This document shows positions 6,408-16,929 of a stretch of 42,398 bases of DNA, in pieces. The translations under genes were made by a program, and so were the position numbers. This DNA comes from Candidatus Fermentithermobacillaceae bacterium. GTDB lineage: Bacteria > Bacillota > Sulfobacillia > Fermentithermobacillales > Fermentithermobacillaceae. A model generated the notes under the pieces. The model was not told where the DNA came from and made no database searches. It saw only the letters and a list, made by a program, of their open reading frames with translations. Within the stretch, counting starts at the first letter, position 1, and the number at the start of each line of letters is the position of its first letter. The stretch covers positions 1-42,398 of the forward strand of contig JAAZEL010000003.1 of NCBI GenBank assembly GCA_012512325.1, read 5' to 3'.

Positions 6408-7550
6408 TCAAATATTCAGCATGAGGCCTGCAAGCAGTGCCGCCCTTTCGGGCAAGCTGGACGTGATGACATATTCAGTGACTGCATGGGCATCGTCACC
6501 TATGGAGCCCAAGCCATCCAGTGTAGGAATGCCCAAAGCCGAGGTGAAGTTTCCATCGCTTCCGCCACCTGTCCCTGCTTCTTCCAGCTCTATTCCTATT
6601 TCTCTGCCGATTAGCTGAGCCAGCCTGAAGAGGCGGAGGTTTTTCTCATTCCTTTCCATGGGAGGCCTGTTCAACCCGCCTTCGACGGACAGCTTGATCC
6701 TGGGGTCGAAAGGCCTCAAGTTCCTCATGTTCGACAGCAGCTTTTCAGCCGCATCCATGGCCACCACTCTTACGTCGACATCTAAGGCCGCTTGTTCGGC
6801 AACTACATTGGACCGGGTACCTGCCCTCACCACACCTACGTTGACGGTGGTCCCTTCTTCCAAGTCCGTCAGGTCATGCAAATACAGGATCTGACGGCCG
6901 GCTTCGGTGATGGCGGAGACTCCTCGCTCATAGTCGGCGCCTGCGTGAGACGCCCTACCTGTAATGGACACTGTGAAGCCCCCCACACCTTTCCTCCATG
7001 TCTTCAGTGCTCCGGGCCCCTCAGACGGTTCTGCGACGAGCACCGCGGCGGCCTTCATTGCTTCCTCTTCTATGATGGGCCTGGACGACGGCGACCCGAT
7101 TTCTTCGTCTGACGTGTGCAATACCACTATCTTTTTCCCGGGTACCATGCCTAAGTCAATAAGTGCCTTGACGGCATATATGGTCTGTACGATTCCGGAT
7201 TTCATATCGTATACCCCGGGGCCGTACGCCTTTCCGCCCTCGACCCGGAAAGGTCTCTTCCGGGTTTCATCGGCATCCCAAACCGTGTCCATGTGACAGA
7301 GGACCAGTATGCTTTCATCTCCGCAATTCCACTCAGCCTTTACGTGACTGCCGTATTCAGCCTGAGGAATTACGGTAACTGCGGCACCCAATGATCTCCA
7401 TTCTTCCGCAACCATTTCTGCAAACCTATCGGTGTGTGGCTTGTCGGTGCTCGGGGAAGGGGCATTGGTGAACCTGCCCAATAACTCAAGCATCTCAGCC
7501 TCACGCGATTGGAGGAATGACAAAATTCGCTTCTGCCTCGACAATTCCAC
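6408..7550 (-). CDS. M20 family metallopeptidase (glutamate carboxypeptidase-like)
   Basis: LVLCHMDTVWDADE, GPGVYDMKSGI, TSDEEIGSPSSR, GGGSDGNFTSALGIPTLDGLG; conserved M20 metal-site motifs. Confidence 0.92.
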   Translation of the reverse strand: MELSRQKRILSFLQSREAEMLELLGRFTNAPSPSTDKPHTDRFAEMVAEEWRSLGAAVTVIPQAEYGSHVKAEWNCGDESILVLCHMDTVWDADETRKRPFRVEGGKAYGPGVYDMKSGIVQTIYAVKALIDLGMVPGKKIVVLHTSDEEIGSPSSRPIIEEEAMKAAAVLVAEPSEGPGALKTWRKGVGGFTVSITGRASHAGADYERGVSAITEAGRQILYLHDLTDLEEGTTVNVGVVRAGTRSNVVAEQAALDVDVRVVAMDAAEKLLSNMRNLRPFDPRIKLSVEGGLNRPPMERNEKNLRLFRLAQLIGREIGIELEEAGTGGGSDGNFTSALGIPTLDGLGSIGDDAHAVTEYVITSSLPERAALLAGLMLNI

Positions 7551-7607
7551 TTATCCTCCTTCCGAATCCATCCCCCTGGGGGTTTCCGGCCTTCATAAGG
7601 CTATTCT

Positions 7608-8969
7608 TCAGCGGTTCTTCTCCAGGGCGATCTTGTTCAGCCGGGACACCCTGCCCACGGACTTCAGCAAGCAGCCACAGACCCGGCCGTCATAGTCGCG
7701 AATGAACTCGACATAGCTGTCTGTTTGCCTGTCCGCCAGAAACAGGTCTCTTGACAGGGGTAACAGGTCGAATTCTGCAAGGGGCTGGTCGTTGGCAAGC
7801 ATTACTGCCTTCAGGCCCGGGGAGTTCCCTTGGGGCCACTCAACCTCGATTTCCAGCCGCCTGTCCCAGGGCTGGGTCCGGAAGCGGCCAAGCTTTTCCG
7901 AGTAGTGCTCCTCGGGAAGAACCGCAGGCACCAGGGGCTGCATCTTATCCCCCAGCATTAGGCCTGCAATCGCACCCAATATCCTGTCTAACCCTATACC
8001 GGCGGCATTGGACAGCAGGATCACGCAGAGCTGCTCATCAGGAAACCGGCTCAAGAGGGCATTGTAGCCCAGGGTTGAACCGCTGTGGTGGATCTCACGG
8101 ATCCCCCGCCGTTCACCCATTATCAGGCCGAAACCGTACCTGGTAACATAGGGGTTAACTGGGTTCCACGGCACAAACGCCTGGGAAAGCTTGGCCAGAG
8201 GCAATAGCTTGTCCGATGATTGAGCCTGAACCCACTTGACCATGTCGTCTACCGTTGAGATTATGTTCCCGTCAGCCCAACCTACCACAGCCCGGTTGTA
8301 CGGCGCTTCCTTGAACGTCTTGTCTTTGGTGTTGAACTCGTATCCAATGGCCATGCCCGCCGGCCTTGCCCTTGTCTCTCCCGCAAAGGTGTCTTCCATC
8401 TCCAGCGGTTGGAACACCTTCTCTTTCACAAATTGGGCAAAGGTTCTACCCGAAGCCTTCTCGATTATCGCATCCAGCAGGATGTAGTTGGAGTTGGAAT
8501 ACCGCCAGTTTGACCCCGGCTCGAAGTCCAGTTGTTCGTACGAGCGCATGCGGTTCAACAGGGTGCCCCGGTCAATGTCCTCGTCTCTTGCGTTCACTTC
8601 CTCCCAGAACTCCTGGGTGAGATATTCGGGAATACCTGAGGTATGCTGAAGAAGCTGCCTGACGGTGACCCTATCGCTCCACTCGGGAAAGCCGGGAAGG
8701 AAGCGGGAGACAGGATCATCGTAGTCCAACAGACCACCATGCTTGAGCATCATCACACACATGCCCACAAACTGCTTTGTAACAGAGCCGATGATAAACC
8801 TGTTTTCGGGTACGAGGGACTGCTTTTGCTCCACATCAGCCAGACCGTAGGCTTTCCTTACAAGCACGCGATCCCCCCTGCCGATGAGCACTGCAACACC
8901 CGGTCCCTGAGGTGACACGAAATCCCTCATTATGTCGTCGATTGCCTTCGTAAGCGTCGCATCCGGCAT
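7608..8969 (-). CDS. Serine hydrolase, S12 / class C beta-lactamase family
   Basis: FIIGSVTKQFVGM (SxxK), RYSNSNYILLDAIIEKASG (YxN), HHSGSTLGYN. Start MPDATLTKA preferred, with GGGAGGT upstream. Confidence 0.88.
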   Translation of the reverse strand: MPDATLTKAIDDIMRDFVSPQGPGVAVLIGRGDRVLVRKAYGLADVEQKQSLVPENRFIIGSVTKQFVGMCVMMLKHGGLLDYDDPVSRFLPGFPEWSDRVTVRQLLQHTSGIPEYLTQEFWEEVNARDEDIDRGTLLNRMRSYEQLDFEPGSNWRYSNSNYILLDAIIEKASGRTFAQFVKEKVFQPLEMEDTFAGETRARPAGMAIGYEFNTKDKTFKEAPYNRAVVGWADGNIISTVDDMVKWVQAQSSDKLLPLAKLSQAFVPWNPVNPYVTRYGFGLIMGERRGIREIHHSGSTLGYNALLSRFPDEQLCVILLSNAAGIGLDRILGAIAGLMLGDKMQPLVPAVLPEEHYSEKLGRFRTQPWDRRLEIEVEWPQGNSPGLKAVMLANDQPLAEFDLLPLSRDLFLADRQTDSYVEFIRDYDGRVCGCLLKSVGRVSRLNKIALEKNR

Positions 8970-9046
8970 TGCCGTACACACCTCCCATCGCAAACCTGGG
9001 GGGCTGTGGATCCGAATAACTTCCCTTCCCAACAGCCCCCTGTACG

Positions 9047-10033
9047 CTAATTCACATCGACGCTGAATGACTCACCATCCCCGCCTTGTGCCGTCTCTGC
9101 CAGCAAACTTGAGTCGATGTTGCCGCCACTTATGACAATGGCCACACGCCTCCCACTAAAGCTCCGGGGGCTCTCGAGTACGCAGGCTACTCCGGCAGCA
9201 GCGGAAGGTTCGACCACCAGTTTTTCAGCAAACAGCAGGAAACCAACGGCTTTGAGAATGGATGCTTCACTTACCGTTGAAACCCTGCAACCTAACCGGC
9301 TGATATGCTCAAAGGCCACCCTTTCCACTCCTCCGATGAGCCCTTCGCAGACGGACTCATCACAGGGGTATTCTTCATATGCTCTTCCTTCTTCCAAAGA
9401 TGCAGCCATGGCGGGGCATGCAGCTGTCTGAACACCCGAGACCGCCACAGACGGATCCAAGGCCTTCATGGCTACTGCGATGCCTGTCATCAGGCTCCCG
9501 CCACCGACGGGCACGAGGACCTCGTCTAAGTCAGGCTCTTGTTGCACCAACTCGGTTGCTATTGTGCCGTAACCGGCCATCACCCGGATATCCCCTTGCT
9601 CGATGAAGGTCTTCTGATAGGCACCGGCGGAGAGCTCTTGCCTCGCATTGAGGCGACACTGGTCGTAGTTATCTCCGGTTACCTTAACCTTAGCGCCGAA
9701 CCCGGATATCCTGCGGAGTTTGGATTGGGGGGTGTTACGGGGAACAAACACATCCACAGGGATGTCGAATACCGATCCACAGTAGCTCGCTGCAAGGCCG
9801 AAGTTCCCCGATGATACTACCGCTATACCTCGTGACAGCACATCCCGGTCCATGGACATTACCTTGTTGAGCATGCCTCTTATCTTGAAGGCGTTGAGCC
9901 TCTGCAGGTTCTCCAGCTTCAGGTATATCTCTCCACCGGCGAGCTCGCTGAGACAGTCAGAGCGCAGCAACGGAGTCTTCCGGATTAGGGGCGCGATTTG
10001 CTTTGCTTCTTCTACAAGTTCATAAGTCAGCAT
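9047..10033 (-). CDS. PLP-dependent threonine/serine dehydratase family protein
   Basis: Fold type II: IYLKLENLQRLNAFKIRGMLNK, VVSSGNFGLAASYCG, PVGGGSLMTGIAVAMK, VISGGNID. Confidence 0.85.
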   Translation of the reverse strand: MLTYELVEEAKQIAPLIRKTPLLRSDCLSELAGGEIYLKLENLQRLNAFKIRGMLNKVMSMDRDVLSRGIAVVSSGNFGLAASYCGSVFDIPVDVFVPRNTPQSKLRRISGFGAKVKVTGDNYDQCRLNARQELSAGAYQKTFIEQGDIRVMAGYGTIATELVQQEPDLDEVLVPVGGGSLMTGIAVAMKALDPSVAVSGVQTAACPAMAASLEEGRAYEEYPCDESVCEGLIGGVERVAFEHISRLGCRVSTVSEASILKAVGFLLFAEKLVVEPSAAAGVACVLESPRSFSGRRVAIVISGGNIDSSLLAETAQGGDGESFSVDVN

Positions 10034-10063
10034 GTCTTACTCCGGTTGTCAGAATCGCCCTAC

Positions 10064-11713
10064 CTAGACAAGCTTGCTCTTCCGCCTGAGAAGCTGTCCG
10101 GGCAGAACTTCTGTGAGTTGTTCGTCCTTTACTACGAACTGTCCGTTCACCAATAGGTGAACCACGCCTTCAGCGTAATGATGGGGATCTGCGAACGTGG
10201 ATGCACACCCGGCCTTCCAGATGTCTAGGACAATCAGGTCGGCTTTGGCGCCCGGCCTCACCACGCCCCGGTCGCCCAATCCAAGTTTCCATGCAGGCAA
10301 GCCCGACATCTTATAGATGGCAGTCTCCAACGGCAGTAGCGATTCGTCCCTAACCAATTGGTACAATACCTTGGAGAACGCACAATAGGTCCGGGGATGG
10401 GGCATGCCTTCGCCGAGCTTTGTTGCCCTGCTGTCGCTGCAAATCATTCCAAGCCTGTGGATCAGGGCCTTCCTGTTGTCCTCTTCACCCATGCCGCCTG
10501 CGATCATGGATATGTCTATGTCTTCTTCGGCCAGGGCAAACAGCACCTCAATGGGGTCTTGGCTTCTCAGGGCAGCTACATCCGCTACGGTCTTGCCCAC
10601 ATACTCCGGGAACTTGCTTGATGCGGTGATAAGCAATCCTTCGGGTTTGGCGTCAAGATAGATGTTCTCCCATTGAGTTGACGGCCTTACCAGTTCCCTC
10701 CTGATCCGAGCCCGCACATCCGGATCTTTGATTTTCTGCTGCAAAGCAGCCTTCCCGCCTGATCTGGCCCAGTCGGGGAACAGCACGAACAGGCTTGCAC
10801 CGGAAGGGGTAAAGGCATAGACATCAAACGTAACCTCTATACCTGTGCGGCGTGCGTATTCCATGTTTTTCAAAGTGGTGTCCACAATGCCCCAGTTTCT
10901 TTGCCCGGAAGCTTTGAGGTGTGAAACTTGCACCCGGCATCCCGATTCTTCCGCGACCTCCAAGCATTCCTTCAGGGCATGGAGCATGGTATCAGCTTCG
11001 CTTCTCAAGTGACTCACGTAATATCCGCCGTACTTGGCAACCACTTCAACGAGACTCGCAATTTCCTCTTGGTTCGCATACATCCCGGGACTGTATATGA
11101 GCCCTGTGCTCAGGCCAAAAGCCCCGGCCTCCATGGCCTCAGCAACATGGGCCTGCATACGGGTAATTTCGTCACGGGAAGCCGGCCTCTTTTCCAGGCC
11201 GATGGCACAGCTTCTGACCTGGCCATGCCCGACCAAGGTAGCGACGTTTATCGCTTTTGGAAGTTTGTCCAAAGCGGACAGGTAGTCGGCAAAGGACAGC
11301 CCTTCGTACAGGGATTCACTCCCTGTGCGTTCAGCGATGAAGCTGTGCAGCTCGCTGCCGTCGTCTCCTTCGGACAGGGGAGCTACGCTGGTTCCGCAAT
11401 TGCCGACCACAATGGTGGTTACACCCTGGTAGACATAGTTCAACGCGTCGGGATTGTGGAAAATGGCCAAGTCGCTGTGGTTGTGGATGTCGATAAATCC
11501 CGGACACAGGATCAAACCTTCACAATCAATCTCCACCGCTGCGTCGTATGTCACCGCCTCACCGGTCCGTGGGCGCACAAACTCTATTCTGTCTCCCTTT
11601 ACTCCTACATCGGCATAAATCCACGGGCTTCCGGCGCCGTCGACAAGCTTGGCGTTCCGAAACACGATATCAAGCTTGCCGCCATCATCTGCCGCTAAGA
11701 TATTCTTAGGCAT
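10064..11713 (-). CDS. N-acyl-D-amino-acid deacylase (D-aminoacylase) family amidohydrolase
   Basis: LCPGFIDIHNHSDLAIFHNPDALNYVYQGVTTIVVGNCGTSVAPL, AFGLSTGLIYSPGMYA, VRPGAKADLIVLD. Confidence 0.88.
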   Translation of the reverse strand: MPKNILAADDGGKLDIVFRNAKLVDGAGSPWIYADVGVKGDRIEFVRPRTGEAVTYDAAVEIDCEGLILCPGFIDIHNHSDLAIFHNPDALNYVYQGVTTIVVGNCGTSVAPLSEGDDGSELHSFIAERTGSESLYEGLSFADYLSALDKLPKAINVATLVGHGQVRSCAIGLEKRPASRDEITRMQAHVAEAMEAGAFGLSTGLIYSPGMYANQEEIASLVEVVAKYGGYYVSHLRSEADTMLHALKECLEVAEESGCRVQVSHLKASGQRNWGIVDTTLKNMEYARRTGIEVTFDVYAFTPSGASLFVLFPDWARSGGKAALQQKIKDPDVRARIRRELVRPSTQWENIYLDAKPEGLLITASSKFPEYVGKTVADVAALRSQDPIEVLFALAEEDIDISMIAGGMGEEDNRKALIHRLGMICSDSRATKLGEGMPHPRTYCAFSKVLYQLVRDESLLPLETAIYKMSGLPAWKLGLGDRGVVRPGAKADLIVLDIWKAGCASTFADPHHYAEGVVHLLVNGQFVVKDEQLTEVLPGQLLRRKSKLV

Positions 11714-11755
11714 AAGAATCTCCCCCTTGGTGGTTGTAAGGTACTGGACCTGCTT

Positions 11756-12358
11756 CTATCTATAAATGCCTACGCATTGCAGGATCGTCTTGAACGTCCC
11801 GATGAGGAGCGCAAAGTTGTCGAAAATGCTGGTTGCGAACACCACCCCGAAAGATATCATCATGGTAAACCTACCTACCCGGCCGATGCTCCCTACTGCC
11901 CTCACGCGACTTGTGACCGAAAGCAGGAAATATATAACGGTGGCCAATACTCCGACGACCAGTATGATGTTGTTTAGGCTGTTGAGGGGAATCATAGTAG
12001 CCCTTATCTGAGACAGAATCCTGGATGAGATTATCCCCGTCATTGCCACTCCGGTTCCCAACCCTACAAGGAACGAAGTGGGGTATCGCTTAACCCAGGC
12101 ATGTTTTGGAGCAAGGCCGATGTACAGGCAGAGCCCCAACAGACACGGAATTATCAACCAGACGGAGCCTTGGCTGATAGGAGTAACGGCCTTTGCCTTT
12201 ATGTTGACCCATGCCATGGCAAGGGAATAGCCGGCAGAAAGCCCCACATAAAGGTGCTCTGCAAAACGATACAGCGGGTTTTCCTTAAACAGATACGAGT
12301 ATATGGCTATGATAGCGATTGCCGCTAACCAAATCTTCGGATCAGTACTCACGCTCAT
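11756..12358 (-). CDS. Uncharacterised polytopic membrane protein (about 6 TM)
   Basis: 200 aa with roughly six hydrophobic segments; tight spacing to neighbours, GGAGGTG upstream. Confidence 0.75.
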   Translation of the reverse strand: MSVSTDPKIWLAAIAIIAIYSYLFKENPLYRFAEHLYVGLSAGYSLAMAWVNIKAKAVTPISQGSVWLIIPCLLGLCLYIGLAPKHAWVKRYPTSFLVGLGTGVAMTGIISSRILSQIRATMIPLNSLNNIILVVGVLATVIYFLLSVTSRVRAVGSIGRVGRFTMMISFGVVFATSIFDNFALLIGTFKTILQCVGIYR

Positions 12359-12368
12359 CCACCTCCGG

Positions 12369-13205
12369 CTAGTTTTCCTCGCGGCTGGTACGCTTGTCTA
12401 TGAAGTAACATATATTGCCAATCACCAAGAACACCAGTATTGTCACATGTGCCAGCAACAGAGCACCCATGGCACCGCTGCCGGATCCTATGACGCCTGT
12501 TAGGAGCTCGTACTCGGCTGCCGCACGCAGCCCTCCCAACAGCCCTGCAAGATCTCCCGAATCGTATAGGGGCAGGACCACAGGTGTAATGGTGAACGAG
12601 ACACCGGGGATTACCGCTACACCGTAGGGAAGACCCAGCTGGCGTACATAGATGTCGGGGGTACTGCTGCTGAATGTGAAGAACGTGTGGATGTCCGCGG
12701 CAGTCTTCAGGTAATCCATGATGGGAAACTGCTTAATGTCATCACCGTTCACATCAACCGGAAATGCCGCATGCATATCCTGGGCGGCATATGCCACGGC
12801 TGCCTCCGATCCGGCTCGGAATCCCAGGTTGATATAGTCAACTCCATATGTCTTGCCTGCCTCCGCAAGGATCCGGAGGGCCCTGTCAGCCCATTCCGGC
12901 CCGTCAGGATAAGCGAAGCTCACACATACCACTTTTACTCCGTCCTTCTTTGCCAGGTGTCGCATGATAGCTTCGCTGATGGGAAAAGTCTCAGGCGCTG
13001 AACCCGCACTTACATCAAAAGAGAACATCACTACGTCGCCCGGCTCGAGGCCGTCGAGTCGATCGTAAACCTCCTGGGTGGTGTCAGTGACTATCAGGGG
13101 AACGGCAAATGGAACCAGTATAGGGATTAACACTGCGAGAGTTGTAACGCCGTATATGATCCGCCTGTCTATCCGCTGGAGTTTATTGACCCAACTCTCC
13201 TTCAT
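12369..13205 (-). CDS. Uncharacterised membrane-anchored protein (N-TM / soluble domain / C-TM)
   Basis: Hydrophobic segments near both ends (IIYGVTTLAVLIPILVPFAVPLIV; GALLLAHVTILVFLVIGNICYFI) around a ~180-aa domain. ATG at 13205 has GGGGGAGG upstream, 1 bp after the previous stop. Confidence 0.75.
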   Translation of the reverse strand: MKESWVNKLQRIDRRIIYGVTTLAVLIPILVPFAVPLIVTDTTQEVYDRLDGLEPGDVVMFSFDVSAGSAPETFPISEAIMRHLAKKDGVKVVCVSFAYPDGPEWADRALRILAEAGKTYGVDYINLGFRAGSEAAVAYAAQDMHAAFPVDVNGDDIKQFPIMDYLKTAADIHTFFTFSSSTPDIYVRQLGLPYGVAVIPGVSFTITPVVLPLYDSGDLAGLLGGLRAAAEYELLTGVIGSGSGAMGALLLAHVTILVFLVIGNICYFIDKRTSREEN

Positions 13206-13206
13206 C

Positions 13207-13824
13207 CTACTCCACCTCCCCCAAGTAGCCTCTTTCAATGCCCACCAGGATTCTTATACTCACGCTAATGGCACCTATGGCACTGCACACCATTAAGCCT
13301 CTTTGACCTGCCAGGTTCGGCACATTGTTCAGCCAGAAAAACAGCTTGCCGAAGGAAGGATGGATGAGCTCTCCCAGGCCTGTCTGGTACAAGATGCAGA
13401 TGATGCTCGTCACAAGCAGGACGGTCGCATCCAGGTTCCTGGCCACAAAAGCCCTATACGCCGCTGAGGCTACGTAGAATGCGAGCATGGCGAACATGGC
13501 TGCACCCATGGGAGCCATAAGTGAGTCGTATAAGAAGGTAAAGGTTGAAGATTGCGTTCCAAATGCGACACCGGCGAAGAACATCACCGCAATCCCAACA
13601 ATTAAGGCCAGGCTGTAGATGGTGTTCTTTCCCGTCTTAATGTTCCGGCCGTGTACCAGGACCAGGTTGATGGCTCCTACACCCAGAGCAAAAGAAGAGA
13701 TGATTATGCCCCAGTTTTGAACCTCAGACACCAGGTTTGACACTACGGGTATGTCCACAAATCCGCCCAGGATCATCAGGATCCCTATCACGAAGGTTAT
13801 GGCAACAGGAATTTCATAACGCAT
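13207..13824 (-). CDS. Uncharacterised polytopic membrane protein (about 6 TM)
   Basis: About six hydrophobic stretches; likely start MRYEIPVAITFVIG after GGGAGGT. Confidence 0.75.
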   Translation of the reverse strand: MRYEIPVAITFVIGILMILGGFVDIPVVSNLVSEVQNWGIIISSFALGVGAINLVLVHGRNIKTGKNTIYSLALIVGIAVMFFAGVAFGTQSSTFTFLYDSLMAPMGAAMFAMLAFYVASAAYRAFVARNLDATVLLVTSIICILYQTGLGELIHPSFGKLFFWLNNVPNLAGQRGLMVCSAIGAISVSIRILVGIERGYLGEVE

Positions 13825-13835
13825 GTCTGCTTGTC

Positions 13836-14639
13836 CTACCTCCCATACTTGGATAGTATCTGCCACAGCGAATCACTGCCCACAGTCTGCAATAGAGCGC
13901 CGAGAGCCAAGAGACCGATACATAGGAGTTTGATGATGTCCTGTCCCCATACAGCTCCCAGCCTGACGGGGGCTCTGGAGTAAAATGCACCTCCTGCAAA
14001 CATCTCATCTCCTAAGAGGGTGTAGTCGCAACACGCTACGAAGTTGGGGACTTGAAGAACATTGGTGGTGGCCCCGATCTGCACCGCCTCTAACCCAACT
14101 GCCGCCTCCGCCAGCAGAAGCGCTTCGGCGGCAAAGTTTCCGAACATCAGGTTTGCAGCGATCTTTTCCCTTTCCATTATCCCCATGGCCTGAGCCGCCG
14201 CAGGAAATTGGAGTTCCGAAACAAACCTGATGTTTTCCGGCTTGAAATTCTCCGCGGTGCCATGCCTGAGGTATGCTTCCCTCACCACAGATTCTGCGAT
14301 GGTATGCACCACCGGGTTCCTGTTGGTTACTATGAGGTCGCAATCGTATCGCGCGCAGAAGTTCGCTGTGGCCGCCAGTATATCCAAGCTGACCAAAGAC
14401 TCGGGTGCGCCTACCGCAGTGATGACTCCCGAGCCGGTACTGTAGTGAACCGGCCTTCCCATTTCAGTGGCCCTTCCCACAGCCTCTTCTATGGCTACAA
14501 ATCCCGGAATGGCCCTGATGGTTACGTCCTTTCCACTCTTGCTTCTGCGTATACCGTACAGGATTGCTATGAACATAAAAACCAGGACTGCAAAAGTGAA
14601 ACTTCGTTCCACGTTGAACATTAAGGATACCACTCCCAA
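13836..14639 (-). CDS. Membrane-anchored protein, DUF6754-like (family name tentative)
   Basis: N-terminal TM (FTFAVLVFMFIAILYGI), IPGFVAIEEAVGRATEMGRPVHYSTG, C-terminal TM (IIKLLCIGLLALGALL). Confidence 0.7.
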   Translation of the reverse strand: MGVVSLMFNVERSFTFAVLVFMFIAILYGIRRSKSGKDVTIRAIPGFVAIEEAVGRATEMGRPVHYSTGSGVITAVGAPESLVSLDILAATANFCARYDCDLIVTNRNPVVHTIAESVVREAYLRHGTAENFKPENIRFVSELQFPAAAQAMGIMEREKIAANLMFGNFAAEALLLAEAAVGLEAVQIGATTNVLQVPNFVACCDYTLLGDEMFAGGAFYSRAPVRLGAVWGQDIIKLLCIGLLALGALLQTVGSDSLWQILSKYGR

Positions 14640-15129: not shown

Positions 15130-16929
15130 TCACTCCAGCTTTACAGTCTCCGTCACACACCCTGCCCTGGGGCTCTTGACTTTGATGGCGACTTCGGTAC
15201 CCGGCTTGGCTTTCACCACCCAGCTTGCTTTCCTAACTCTCTCATCCCTTGCAGCGCGAGGTGTCCAGCTTGAGAAGGCTGCTGTAGTGCCCGACCTGCC
15301 GTCCAGATGGCCGATGGCTTGCTTTGCCTTGCCGATTACTTCGATGCAGCCTGCTTCAGTCCGGGCCTCTTGGCTGGGGCCCTCTTGGCTGGGGTCTTCC
15401 TGGCTTTGGGCTTCCCGGGTTTGGCCCTCCTGGCCCGATGCACACAATTCCGCCGTAACCGGCTCGGCCTTCTTAAGCTGCAGCGCCTTGTGGCTTCCAT
15501 ATGTGGGCAGGAAGCCTACATTTTTGACCACGGCGCTCACCTCATATACCCCGTCGCCCAAGGCCCTGCACTTAACATCATCAACCACGAGCCTGGGCAA
15601 GGTGGCAGCCGCCCTGATTATGAACATGGTGTTCTTGTGGCACTCGGCCTCAAGGAACTTGGGCGGCACGTTCTGGAGCACAAACTTGGCATACCAGCCA
15701 CCAATCTCCACTTCGCCCAGTTGGGGGTGGTTGAAAGGCCGCCAGTTCTCAAAGCCCCTGCCCGCCAGCTCCCGGTCGTTCCAGGCCAGCATCTTGAGAT
15801 AATCTTCCTCCTGTTCCTGAACCGACTTCTCCCTGGTTGGAAACTGGTGAATCCCCGACCGCTGCTCCAGATTCCAGGTTTCCACGGTGTACGCCAGGAT
15901 GCCCCGGTGGTCAAACAGCCAGTCGTCAAAAGCACCCCTGCTGTAGGCGTCTCCGCCCTCGTAGTACTCCTCGAAACACGGCTCACACGGGTAACCCGTT
16001 TCTTCAGCGCCCATTTCGCCGATGGCTATCAAGGCCTGGATATCCTGACGCGGGCTTTCCTTGGAGGAGTGAGATCCGGGAACCCGCAGGATTACCCCGC
16101 CTGTTGTGTGATATGTGAAGGCCAGGGAAATATTAGGATGGTTCGCAATGAACTCTGCAACCGCTCTGGTCTCGGGTTCAGACAGGGGGAATGCCCCTGC
16201 ACCGGGCTGCTCTACCTCAGGCACCCACTTAAACGGGAAATTTCGGTTGAAATCCAAGCCCCACTTCGGCGGAGCGTTCTTTATGGTGCCCCCGTCATGC
16301 TCCCGCAAAAATCCTTCCACGTAGACCCGGTAAAACGCGCCTTCATCCTCGTCAGGCTTCCTCCGCACCATCGCCCTGGGATCTCGGGAGGACACTTTCC
16401 ACTCGCCTGTCTCATCCCTCACCCGCATCATGAGGATATGCCCGTCTCCGTCCACATCGGCGGGGTACAAGCCCTCCAGCTCGTCGGGATTGGGGAAAGG
16501 ATACGGCCTGGGGGCTGATCTTAAGGTCTCGGGGGTTGTGAGGTACACCTCGGCCCCGTCTGGCGACACCCTCGGAATCACATACAAGGTGTTGCGCCTG
16601 AGCAATTTGGTGACCCGGTCATCCTTGCCGTAGTTCTCGAGGATGTATTTTACGGCATAGAGGTTTATCATTGACCCGGTTACTTCTCCGGCATGGAAGT
16701 TCCCGTCTATGTAGATTGCGGGTTTTTCGTCAGGATTGCCGGTTGTCCTGTCTGAAAGGGTGACAGCCCAGATATCCCGACCCTCGCCGCTCTTCCCGAT
16801 GGAGGATAGCTGGGCCAGATCCGGATACCGGCTTGCCATAGCCTTCAGGAACGATTCCATTTCCTCAAAGGTAAAGTAGTGGTCGAATCTGGCATTTGCA
16901 GGATCCACGGTTCTCCCCCCTGGTGTCAA
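15130..16929 (-). CDS. M14 family zinc carboxypeptidase
   Basis: IYIDGNFHAGEVTGSMINLYAVKYIL (HxxE), GLDFNRNFPFKW, AFTYHTTGGVILR, YTVETWNLE. Confidence 0.9.
   Translation of the reverse strand: MTPGGRTVDPANARFDHYFTFEEMESFLKAMASRYPDLAQLSSIGKSGEGRDIWAVTLSDRTTGNPDEKPAIYIDGNFHAGEVTGSMINLYAVKYILENYGKDDRVTKLLRRNTLYVIPRVSPDGAEVYLTTPETLRSAPRPYPFPNPDELEGLYPADVDGDGHILMMRVRDETGEWKVSSRDPRAMVRRKPDEDEGAFYRVYVEGFLREHDGGTIKNAPPKWGLDFNRNFPFKWVPEVEQPGAGAFPLSEPETRAVAEFIANHPNISLAFTYHTTGGVILRVPGSHSSKESPRQDIQALIAIGEMGAEETGYPCEPCFEEYYEGGDAYSRGAFDDWLFDHRGILAYTVETWNLEQRSGIHQFPTREKSVQEQEEDYLKMLAWNDRELAGRGFENWRPFNHPQLGEVEIGGWYAKFVLQNVPPKFLEAECHKNTMFIIRAAATLPRLVVDDVKCRALGDGVYEVSAVVKNVGFLPTYGSHKALQLKKAEPVTAELCASGQEGQTREAQSQEDPSQEGPSQEARTEAGCIEVIGKAKQAIGHLDGRSGTTAAFSSWTPRAARDERVRKASWVVKAKPGTEVAIKVKSPRAGCVTETVKLE

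Follow-up and report, generated by a model that had tools for sequence, protein, structure and literature searches.

What do four tightly packed genes for membrane proteins do in a bacterium of the Fermentithermobacillaceae, when the only name that can be attached to any of them is that of a family without a function? The genes, termed g1 to g4 in order of transcription, lie on the minus strand between positions 11,756 and 14,639 of the window, i.e., the whole stretch of 42,398 nt that was analysed (contig JAAZEL010000003.1 of assembly GCA_012512325.1). From the letters of this stretch they had been predicted to form one uncharacterised module, and all four open reading frames proved to be real and correctly placed. 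The findings indicate that they belong to a conserved four-gene module which, as we hold with high confidence, is accompanied by a genetically linked core of MutL-type ATPases and barrel-sandwich proteins. There is in our judgement about an even chance that this module is the substrate-specific part of a multi-subunit uptake system in which interchangeable modules share a single ASKHA-ATPase core.

Composition and conservation of the four-gene module

The genes of the module and their products were as follows.

g1, 13836..14639, minus strand: DUF6754 protein with an N-terminal transmembrane (TM) helix, a predicted cytoplasmic Rossmann-like domain and a C-terminal TM helix
g2, 13207..13824, minus strand: protein of about six TM segments, without a family
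g3, 12369..13205, minus strand: protein with an N-terminal TM helix, a predicted extracytoplasmic Rossmann-like domain and a C-terminal TM helix; candidate substrate receptor
g4, 11756..12358, minus strand: protein of about six TM segments, without a family

The ATG of g4 at 12358 was backed, as were the other starts, by homologues and ribosome-binding sites. For g1, the alignment of homologues favoured ATG at 14621, with TTG at 14639 as the alternative. The ATG of g2 at 13824 has GGAGG upstream, and a longer open reading frame from GTG at 13866 was rejected for want of homologue support, while g3 starts with ATG at 13205, 1 nt past the g2 stop, and is preceded by GGAGGTGGAG.

The tentative DUF name originally given to the first gene turned out to be DUF6754 (PF20539), as residues 7–259 of g1 aligned with positions 5–254 of the 257-position Pfam profile (E 8.7e-76, 254.9 bits versus a curated cut-off of 27). 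No meaningful match in Pfam or NCBIfam was noted for g2, g3 or g4, and none of the four proteins gave a significant sequence match in the PDB. AlphaFold (AF2) models, computed from alignments of 60 g1 and 47 g3 sequences, bore out the predicted arrangement of well-folded domains between terminal helices, each consisting of a membrane helix, a Rossmann-like alpha/beta domain and a second membrane helix (mean predicted local distance difference test, pLDDT, 94.9 for g1 and 94.6 for g3). The expectation of six or so TM segments in g2 and g4 was likewise borne out, with approximately six hydrophobic segments in each, five and three of which, respectively, were found with a strict window and the remainder by reading of the profile. 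In a Foldseek comparison with the PDB the g1 model had no convincing fold relative (best E 0.023); matches of the g3 model to constructs of G protein-coupled receptors, with query TM-scores of at most 0.36, were attributed to their Rossmann or GT-B fusion partners and helices and rejected as homology. Thus, in agreement with the original prediction, Pfam, NCBIfam and PDB sequence searches (g1–g4) and PDB fold searches (g1 and g3) related the module to no known transporter or secretion family.

The two soluble domains are predicted to lie on opposite sides of the membrane. Alignment averages for lysine and arginine were 4.5 after the first TM helix of g1 versus 0.7 before it, and 3.1 at both ends of g3 versus 1.3 and 1.1 beside its domain, so that by the positive-inside bias the domain of g1 would face the cytoplasm and that of g3 the exterior. 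This bears on the proposal that the module is a duplicated two-gene unit, in which g1 and g3 as well as g2 and g4 would be paralogous pairs. The alternating bitopic and polytopic gene order fits such an origin, as do the TM-alpha/beta-TM layout and the similar order of secondary-structure elements that g1 and g3 have in common, but profile comparison by hhalign lent it no support (17.5% probability over 55 columns for g1 versus g3 and 3.1% for g2 versus g4) and the charge bias of g1 and g3 is opposite. Duplication is therefore regarded as very improbable, although a very ancient common fold of g1 and g3 might still underlie the similar order of their modelled elements.

Conservation of gene order was evident at essentially every locus examined. 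By automatic gene calling, 98 of the 123 distinct loci had the complete g1-g2-g3-g4 chain, a frequency far above that expected by chance; another 12 loci ended at a contig or locus edge, and nearly all others were complete in six-frame translation. Apparent g1-g3 or g1-g2-g3 modules were gene-caller artefacts, as the missing genes were recovered by six-frame translation at each such locus except L090. Median intergenic gaps within the module were 17.5, 14.5 and 4.5 nt, and the order of genes in archaeal modules was the same as in bacterial ones. In mirror-tree comparisons the distance matrices of the four subunits correlated with r of 0.80–0.83, as opposed to a permutation maximum of 0.11, and the module is therefore inherited as a unit. 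Together, order, spacing and correlated descent make it almost certain that the four products form one complex, as first proposed.

Modules were often numerous within a genome. In that of the window (G000), DUF6754 occurred at nine contig places, corresponding to seven complete modules and one solitary g1; an initial count of nine modules fell to eight loci, as contigs C62 and C42 have an overlap of 127 identical bases within g1 and thus hold the two halves of one module. The solitary g1 (L090:6721-11210, on contig C6) is diverged, is accompanied by a short g2-like stretch and lies directly upstream of genes for a urocanase and a histidase-like protein; this locus is a degenerate or truncated module. 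Twelve full-length and two truncated DUF6754 genes were present on the complete chromosome of G006, up to 15 DUF6754 genes in the 1.4–2.4 Mb genomes of the Fermentithermobacillaceae and 27 in a genome from another family of the class (G028). For 64 of 67 modules of the family the best relative of both g1 and g3 was found in another genus rather than in a paralogue, which indicates that the paralogues are old, individually maintained lineages. Identity among the G006 paralogues was highest for g1 (46%) and lowest for g3 (36%), as expected if the former docks on a common core and the latter binds a ligand.

MutL and barrel-sandwich genes that accompany the module

The association of the module with a second set of genes was evident from deeper relatives, in which (L043, L044, L045 and L048) the module is followed by mutL, by bsh and by one or two smA genes for proteins of about 120 residues. 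The same linkage was seen at L037 and L047 from g3-g4 and the genes downstream. Where contigs were longer, smA was followed by a second mutL-bsh pair, and several of these operons start with ph, a gene for a small membrane protein. In the family of the window the modules are dispersed and the core is a single operon apart from them, with the order ph-mutL-bsh-smA-mutL-bsh (L086 for the window genome and L093 for G006). A single cluster of the archaeon G268 (L222) contains core genes and modules in alternation. In all four archaeal genomes inspected bsh followed mutL. The original statement that no ATPase is present holds for the four-gene cluster but not for the genome, which has, at another place, genes for a core of MutL-type ATPases that co-occurs with the module.

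Co-occurrence was nearly perfect in bacteria and archaea. Among 61 related genomes DUF6754 was present in 33, all of which (33/33) also carried mutL and bsh, while a bsh match was noted in only 3 of the 28 genomes without DUF6754 (G023, G045 and, weakly, G030; Fisher p 4e-14); L047, from a close relative of G023, carries module genes. In an independent set of 250 genomes, from the archaeal phylum to which L050 belongs, the seven with DUF6754 (3–9 matches each) were the same seven that had a full-length MutL, and the remaining 243 had neither (p 9e-14). The relatedness of the genomes makes these p-values optimistic, yet the pattern recurs in two domains.

The mutL products belong to the ASKHA ATPase family PF13941 (approximately 400 bits; 405 bits for L086:9078-10970) and have intact motifs (DVGSTTTK and GVDIGGATTDVFS), and those of bsh gave RnfC_N-type barrel-sandwich matches. 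The first MutL of the core (MutL-A) ends in a conserved basic-aromatic tail, e.g., KKRGGLFGIFRR, which reads GGKKRGGLFGIFRR in the window genome and is GKKRGFFARLFKR-like elsewhere (L086:7194-10970 and equivalents in L043, L044, L047, L048, L093 and L099), whereas the second MutL and canonical GlmL have no such tail. As some other cytoplasmic proteins have tails that target them to the membrane, the tail of MutL-A may, by analogy, bring the core there. Several smA proteins were also observed to have tails rich in tryptophan and arginine (e.g., RRRRWWPFGR). Canonical GlmL paralogues are separate genes of the same genomes (C33:56435 in G000), and the L086 core operon is not with amino-mutase genes and is flanked by a peptidase S58 gene. 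Genes for D-aminopeptidase (M55), peptidase S58 and a C26-like amidotransferase were noted near core operons (L086:11894-13768, L043:6768-8409 and L215:10439-11266), which hints at D-amino-acid or peptidoglycan-derived peptides.

Genes adjacent to the modules

In the window, the module is followed on the same strand by four genes for enzymes and preceded by a fifth.

10064..11713, minus strand: amidohydrolase (PF07969, D-aminoacylase-like; E 7.9e-28), first gene downstream of the module after a 42-nt gap
9047..10033, minus strand: pyridoxal phosphate-dependent threonine/serine ammonia-lyase-like enzyme (PF00291, E 2.1e-65), after a 30-nt gap
7608..9032, minus strand: beta-lactamase-family serine hydrolase, possibly of D-aminopeptidase/esterase type (PF00144, E 4.8e-69), after a 14-nt gap
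6408..7550, minus strand: M20 peptidase/aminoacylase-type hydrolase (PF01546, E 5.2e-29), after a 57-nt gap
15130..16929, minus strand: M14 zinc carboxypeptidase (PF00246, E 1.2e-48), upstream of g1 across a 490-nt gap

The best NCBIfam match of the product of 9047..10033 was threonine ammonia-lyase, at a score under the equivalog cut-off. Given the 490-nt gap, the M14 gene, although on the same strand, is probably transcribed separately from g1.

The first co-directional gene within 200 nt downstream of a module was classified for 18 modules, three of these genes being assigned as orthologues of scanned genes. Peptidases or amidohydrolases accounted for 14 of the 18 (six amidohydrolases, two DUF885 proteins, which we take to be peptidase-like, two M20 peptidases and one each of creatininase, M24, M10 and S9). 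Amidohydrolase and M20 genes made up 8/18 of these downstream genes as opposed to 9/112 among genes of these loci that lie farther away (p 0.0003, or p 0.003 with orthologues collapsed). Two unrelated modules, one from a bacterium (L067:10022-15978) and, by reading, one from an archaeon (L212:5331-9724), adjoin a gene for a ThiD-type kinase, a hint that one module subfamily may handle thiamine precursors. Substrates probably differ between modules.

Proposed function and its alternatives

In the proposed uptake system, the outward-facing domain of g3 would capture a solute, g2 and g4 would form its path through the membrane, and the inward-facing domain of g1 would dock on a cytoplasmic core common to all modules of the cell. 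This core would consist of the MutL-family ASKHA ATPases, the barrel-sandwich proteins and the protein of about 120 residues; the basic-aromatic tail of one MutL could hold it at the membrane, and the module would be driven or gated as the core binds or hydrolyses ATP. The module of the window would import a peptide or an N-acyl/D-amino-acid compound, and the four genes just downstream would supply the enzymes for its degradation (amidohydrolase, ammonia-lyase, serine hydrolase and M20 peptidase). Interchangeable modules, one shared core, diverse catabolic neighbours and the observed pattern of conservation are together what an uptake system with a shared energiser would be expected to look like. 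Genomic architecture shows many modules per genome and one core operon; from it we infer the sharing of that core, transport as such, its direction, substrate and stoichiometry, docking, and the part that MutL plays in the module (powering, gating or no more than assembly).

Several observations weigh against this interpretation. The link between module and core is genomic, and physical contact between them is what we infer from it. No homologue with a characterised transport function and no relative in the PDB was found for any module protein (by sequence for g1–g4, by fold for g1 and g3), and PF13941 is known from amino-mutase operons, where its members are thought to be accessory or reactivating proteins and not transport motors. 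Peptide-binding proteins of the ordinary ABC type are also encoded in the same genomes. The hydrolase neighbourhood is suggestive evidence: a close co-directional downstream gene was available for only 18 modules, the immediate neighbours of archaeal modules were mixed overall (those picked for scanning include amidohydrolases, DUF885, M24, TldD, M81 and M55), and enrichment of amidohydrolase and M20 genes across the complete G006 chromosome was weak (p ~0.04), which is why the claim is based on genes directly downstream. Finally, one genome, G063 (L052), has a module but no MutL; this 6.8-Mb metagenome-assembled genome is labelled 'Proteobacteria', its module lies on a 6-kb contig, and the contig is possibly a stray due to binning contamination.

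Other functions can be accommodated by part of the same evidence. The soluble domains of g1 and g3 on opposite sides of the membrane, the many paralogues beside one core and the IclR (PF01614/PF09339) and RpiR-type (PF01418) regulators directly upstream of two modules would also suit a sensory or transduction complex, in which g3 would bind a ligand outside, g1 would relay the signal inside, the MutL core would be the common output of many receptors and the catabolic neighbours would be its regulon. We consider this unlikely, since no output, kinase, HAMP or receiver domain was found in any subunit, two proteins of about six TM segments per module would be excessive for a sensor and the flanking regulators are ordinary soluble ones. 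Equally unlikely is an envelope or secretion machine for export or remodelling of cell-wall material, lipoproteins or small molecules, with the MutL-barrel-sandwich pair as cytoplasmic motor or scaffold: numerous copies, each conserved separately and next to genes for a variety of catabolic enzymes (urocanase, ThiD, ammonia-lyase and hydrolases), are typical of substrate-specific uptake, and no cargo or secretion-signal genes were seen, although barrel-sandwich domains do occur in envelope-spanning machines, mutL-bsh pairs elsewhere (L089 and L105) adjoin FtsX/MacB-like ABC permease genes, and some genes in the vicinity of cores (for D-aminopeptidase, an alanine-racemase-like protein and S58 peptidase) fit cell-wall chemistry.

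The third alternative concerns the core. If its role were that of a chaperone in assembly or repair, which has been proposed for GlmL, the module could be a secondary transporter or membrane enzyme that needs the core only for maturation. This would agree with the derivation of the PF13941 annotation from amino-mutase accessory proteins and with the canonical GlmL-type paralogues of the same genomes; however, an operon that joins the module to a pair of MutLs differing in their C-termini, a pair of barrel-sandwich proteins and a conserved small protein resembles a stoichiometric machine more than a chaperone, and we give the chaperone explanation a low probability.

Taken further, the proposed uptake system could represent a new class of primary-active uptake in bacteria and archaea, with four-subunit modules, external receptor and internal docking domains, and one shared MutL-type ASKHA ATPase/barrel-sandwich core in place of ABC ATPases; this wider proposal is put forward tentatively, as a possibility that we would not yet favour. 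If it is correct, ABC-type and other known ATPases would not be the only ones behind primary-active uptake, membrane transport would be powered by an ATPase of the actin/Hsp70 fold for many specificity modules together, and part of the MutL/GlmL family would gain a role beyond amino-mutase repair. DUF6754 and three unnamed families gain a testable common context, and the system is strongly amplified in the Fermentithermobacillaceae and present in Bathyarchaeota-type archaea, both of which have been studied mainly through metagenomes, so that views of their nutrient uptake are for the most part conjecture. DUF6754 is a family name without a function; a search of the literature outside subscription journals and preprints gave no mention of it and nothing relevant on ASKHA-linked transport or on the MutL/GlmL family in this connection, and neither the g2–g4 partners nor the association with a MutL core appeared in anything found. 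Given that scope, an earlier description of the system may exist.

Comparison with established systems shows partial likenesses. Group II ECF transporters combine a shared energising module with interchangeable S components, and the present system is similar in having one cytoplasmic ATPase core, proposed to be shared, and many specificity modules in the membrane whose genes adjoin those of pathways. The module differs in having four subunits, with predicted domains on either side of the membrane, and in showing no homology to ABC ATPases, EcfT or S components, and the core differs in that its ATPases are MutLs of the ASKHA fold; no ABC, ECF or FtsX match to g1–g4 was found in Pfam or NCBIfam, and no ABC_tran gene in the module or the run downstream (6408-14639), so that by the families searched the module is not an ABC importer. 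TRAP and tripartite tricarboxylate transporters are likewise multi-subunit systems, with several membrane proteins and an extracytoplasmic binding domain, but in the module this domain would be tethered to the membrane by two helices, and no subunit matched their families (DctQ/DctM/DctP or TctA/TctB/TctC) in Pfam or NCBIfam. The core ATPases resemble MutL/GlmL in matching PF13941 with intact ASKHA phosphate-binding motifs and differ in length (600–650 versus about 470 residues), in being paired with a barrel-sandwich protein and in lying outside an amino-mutase operon. As for MacB/LolCDE-type systems of the FtsX kind, the four window genes have no ABC or FtsX homology, whereas some mutL-bsh pairs of the same genomes adjoin genes of this type, in apparent operons with a LolD/MacB-like ATPase and an FtsX-type permease (L089:9922-16480 and L105:8658-16472). 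This core type may therefore work with membrane machines of several kinds.

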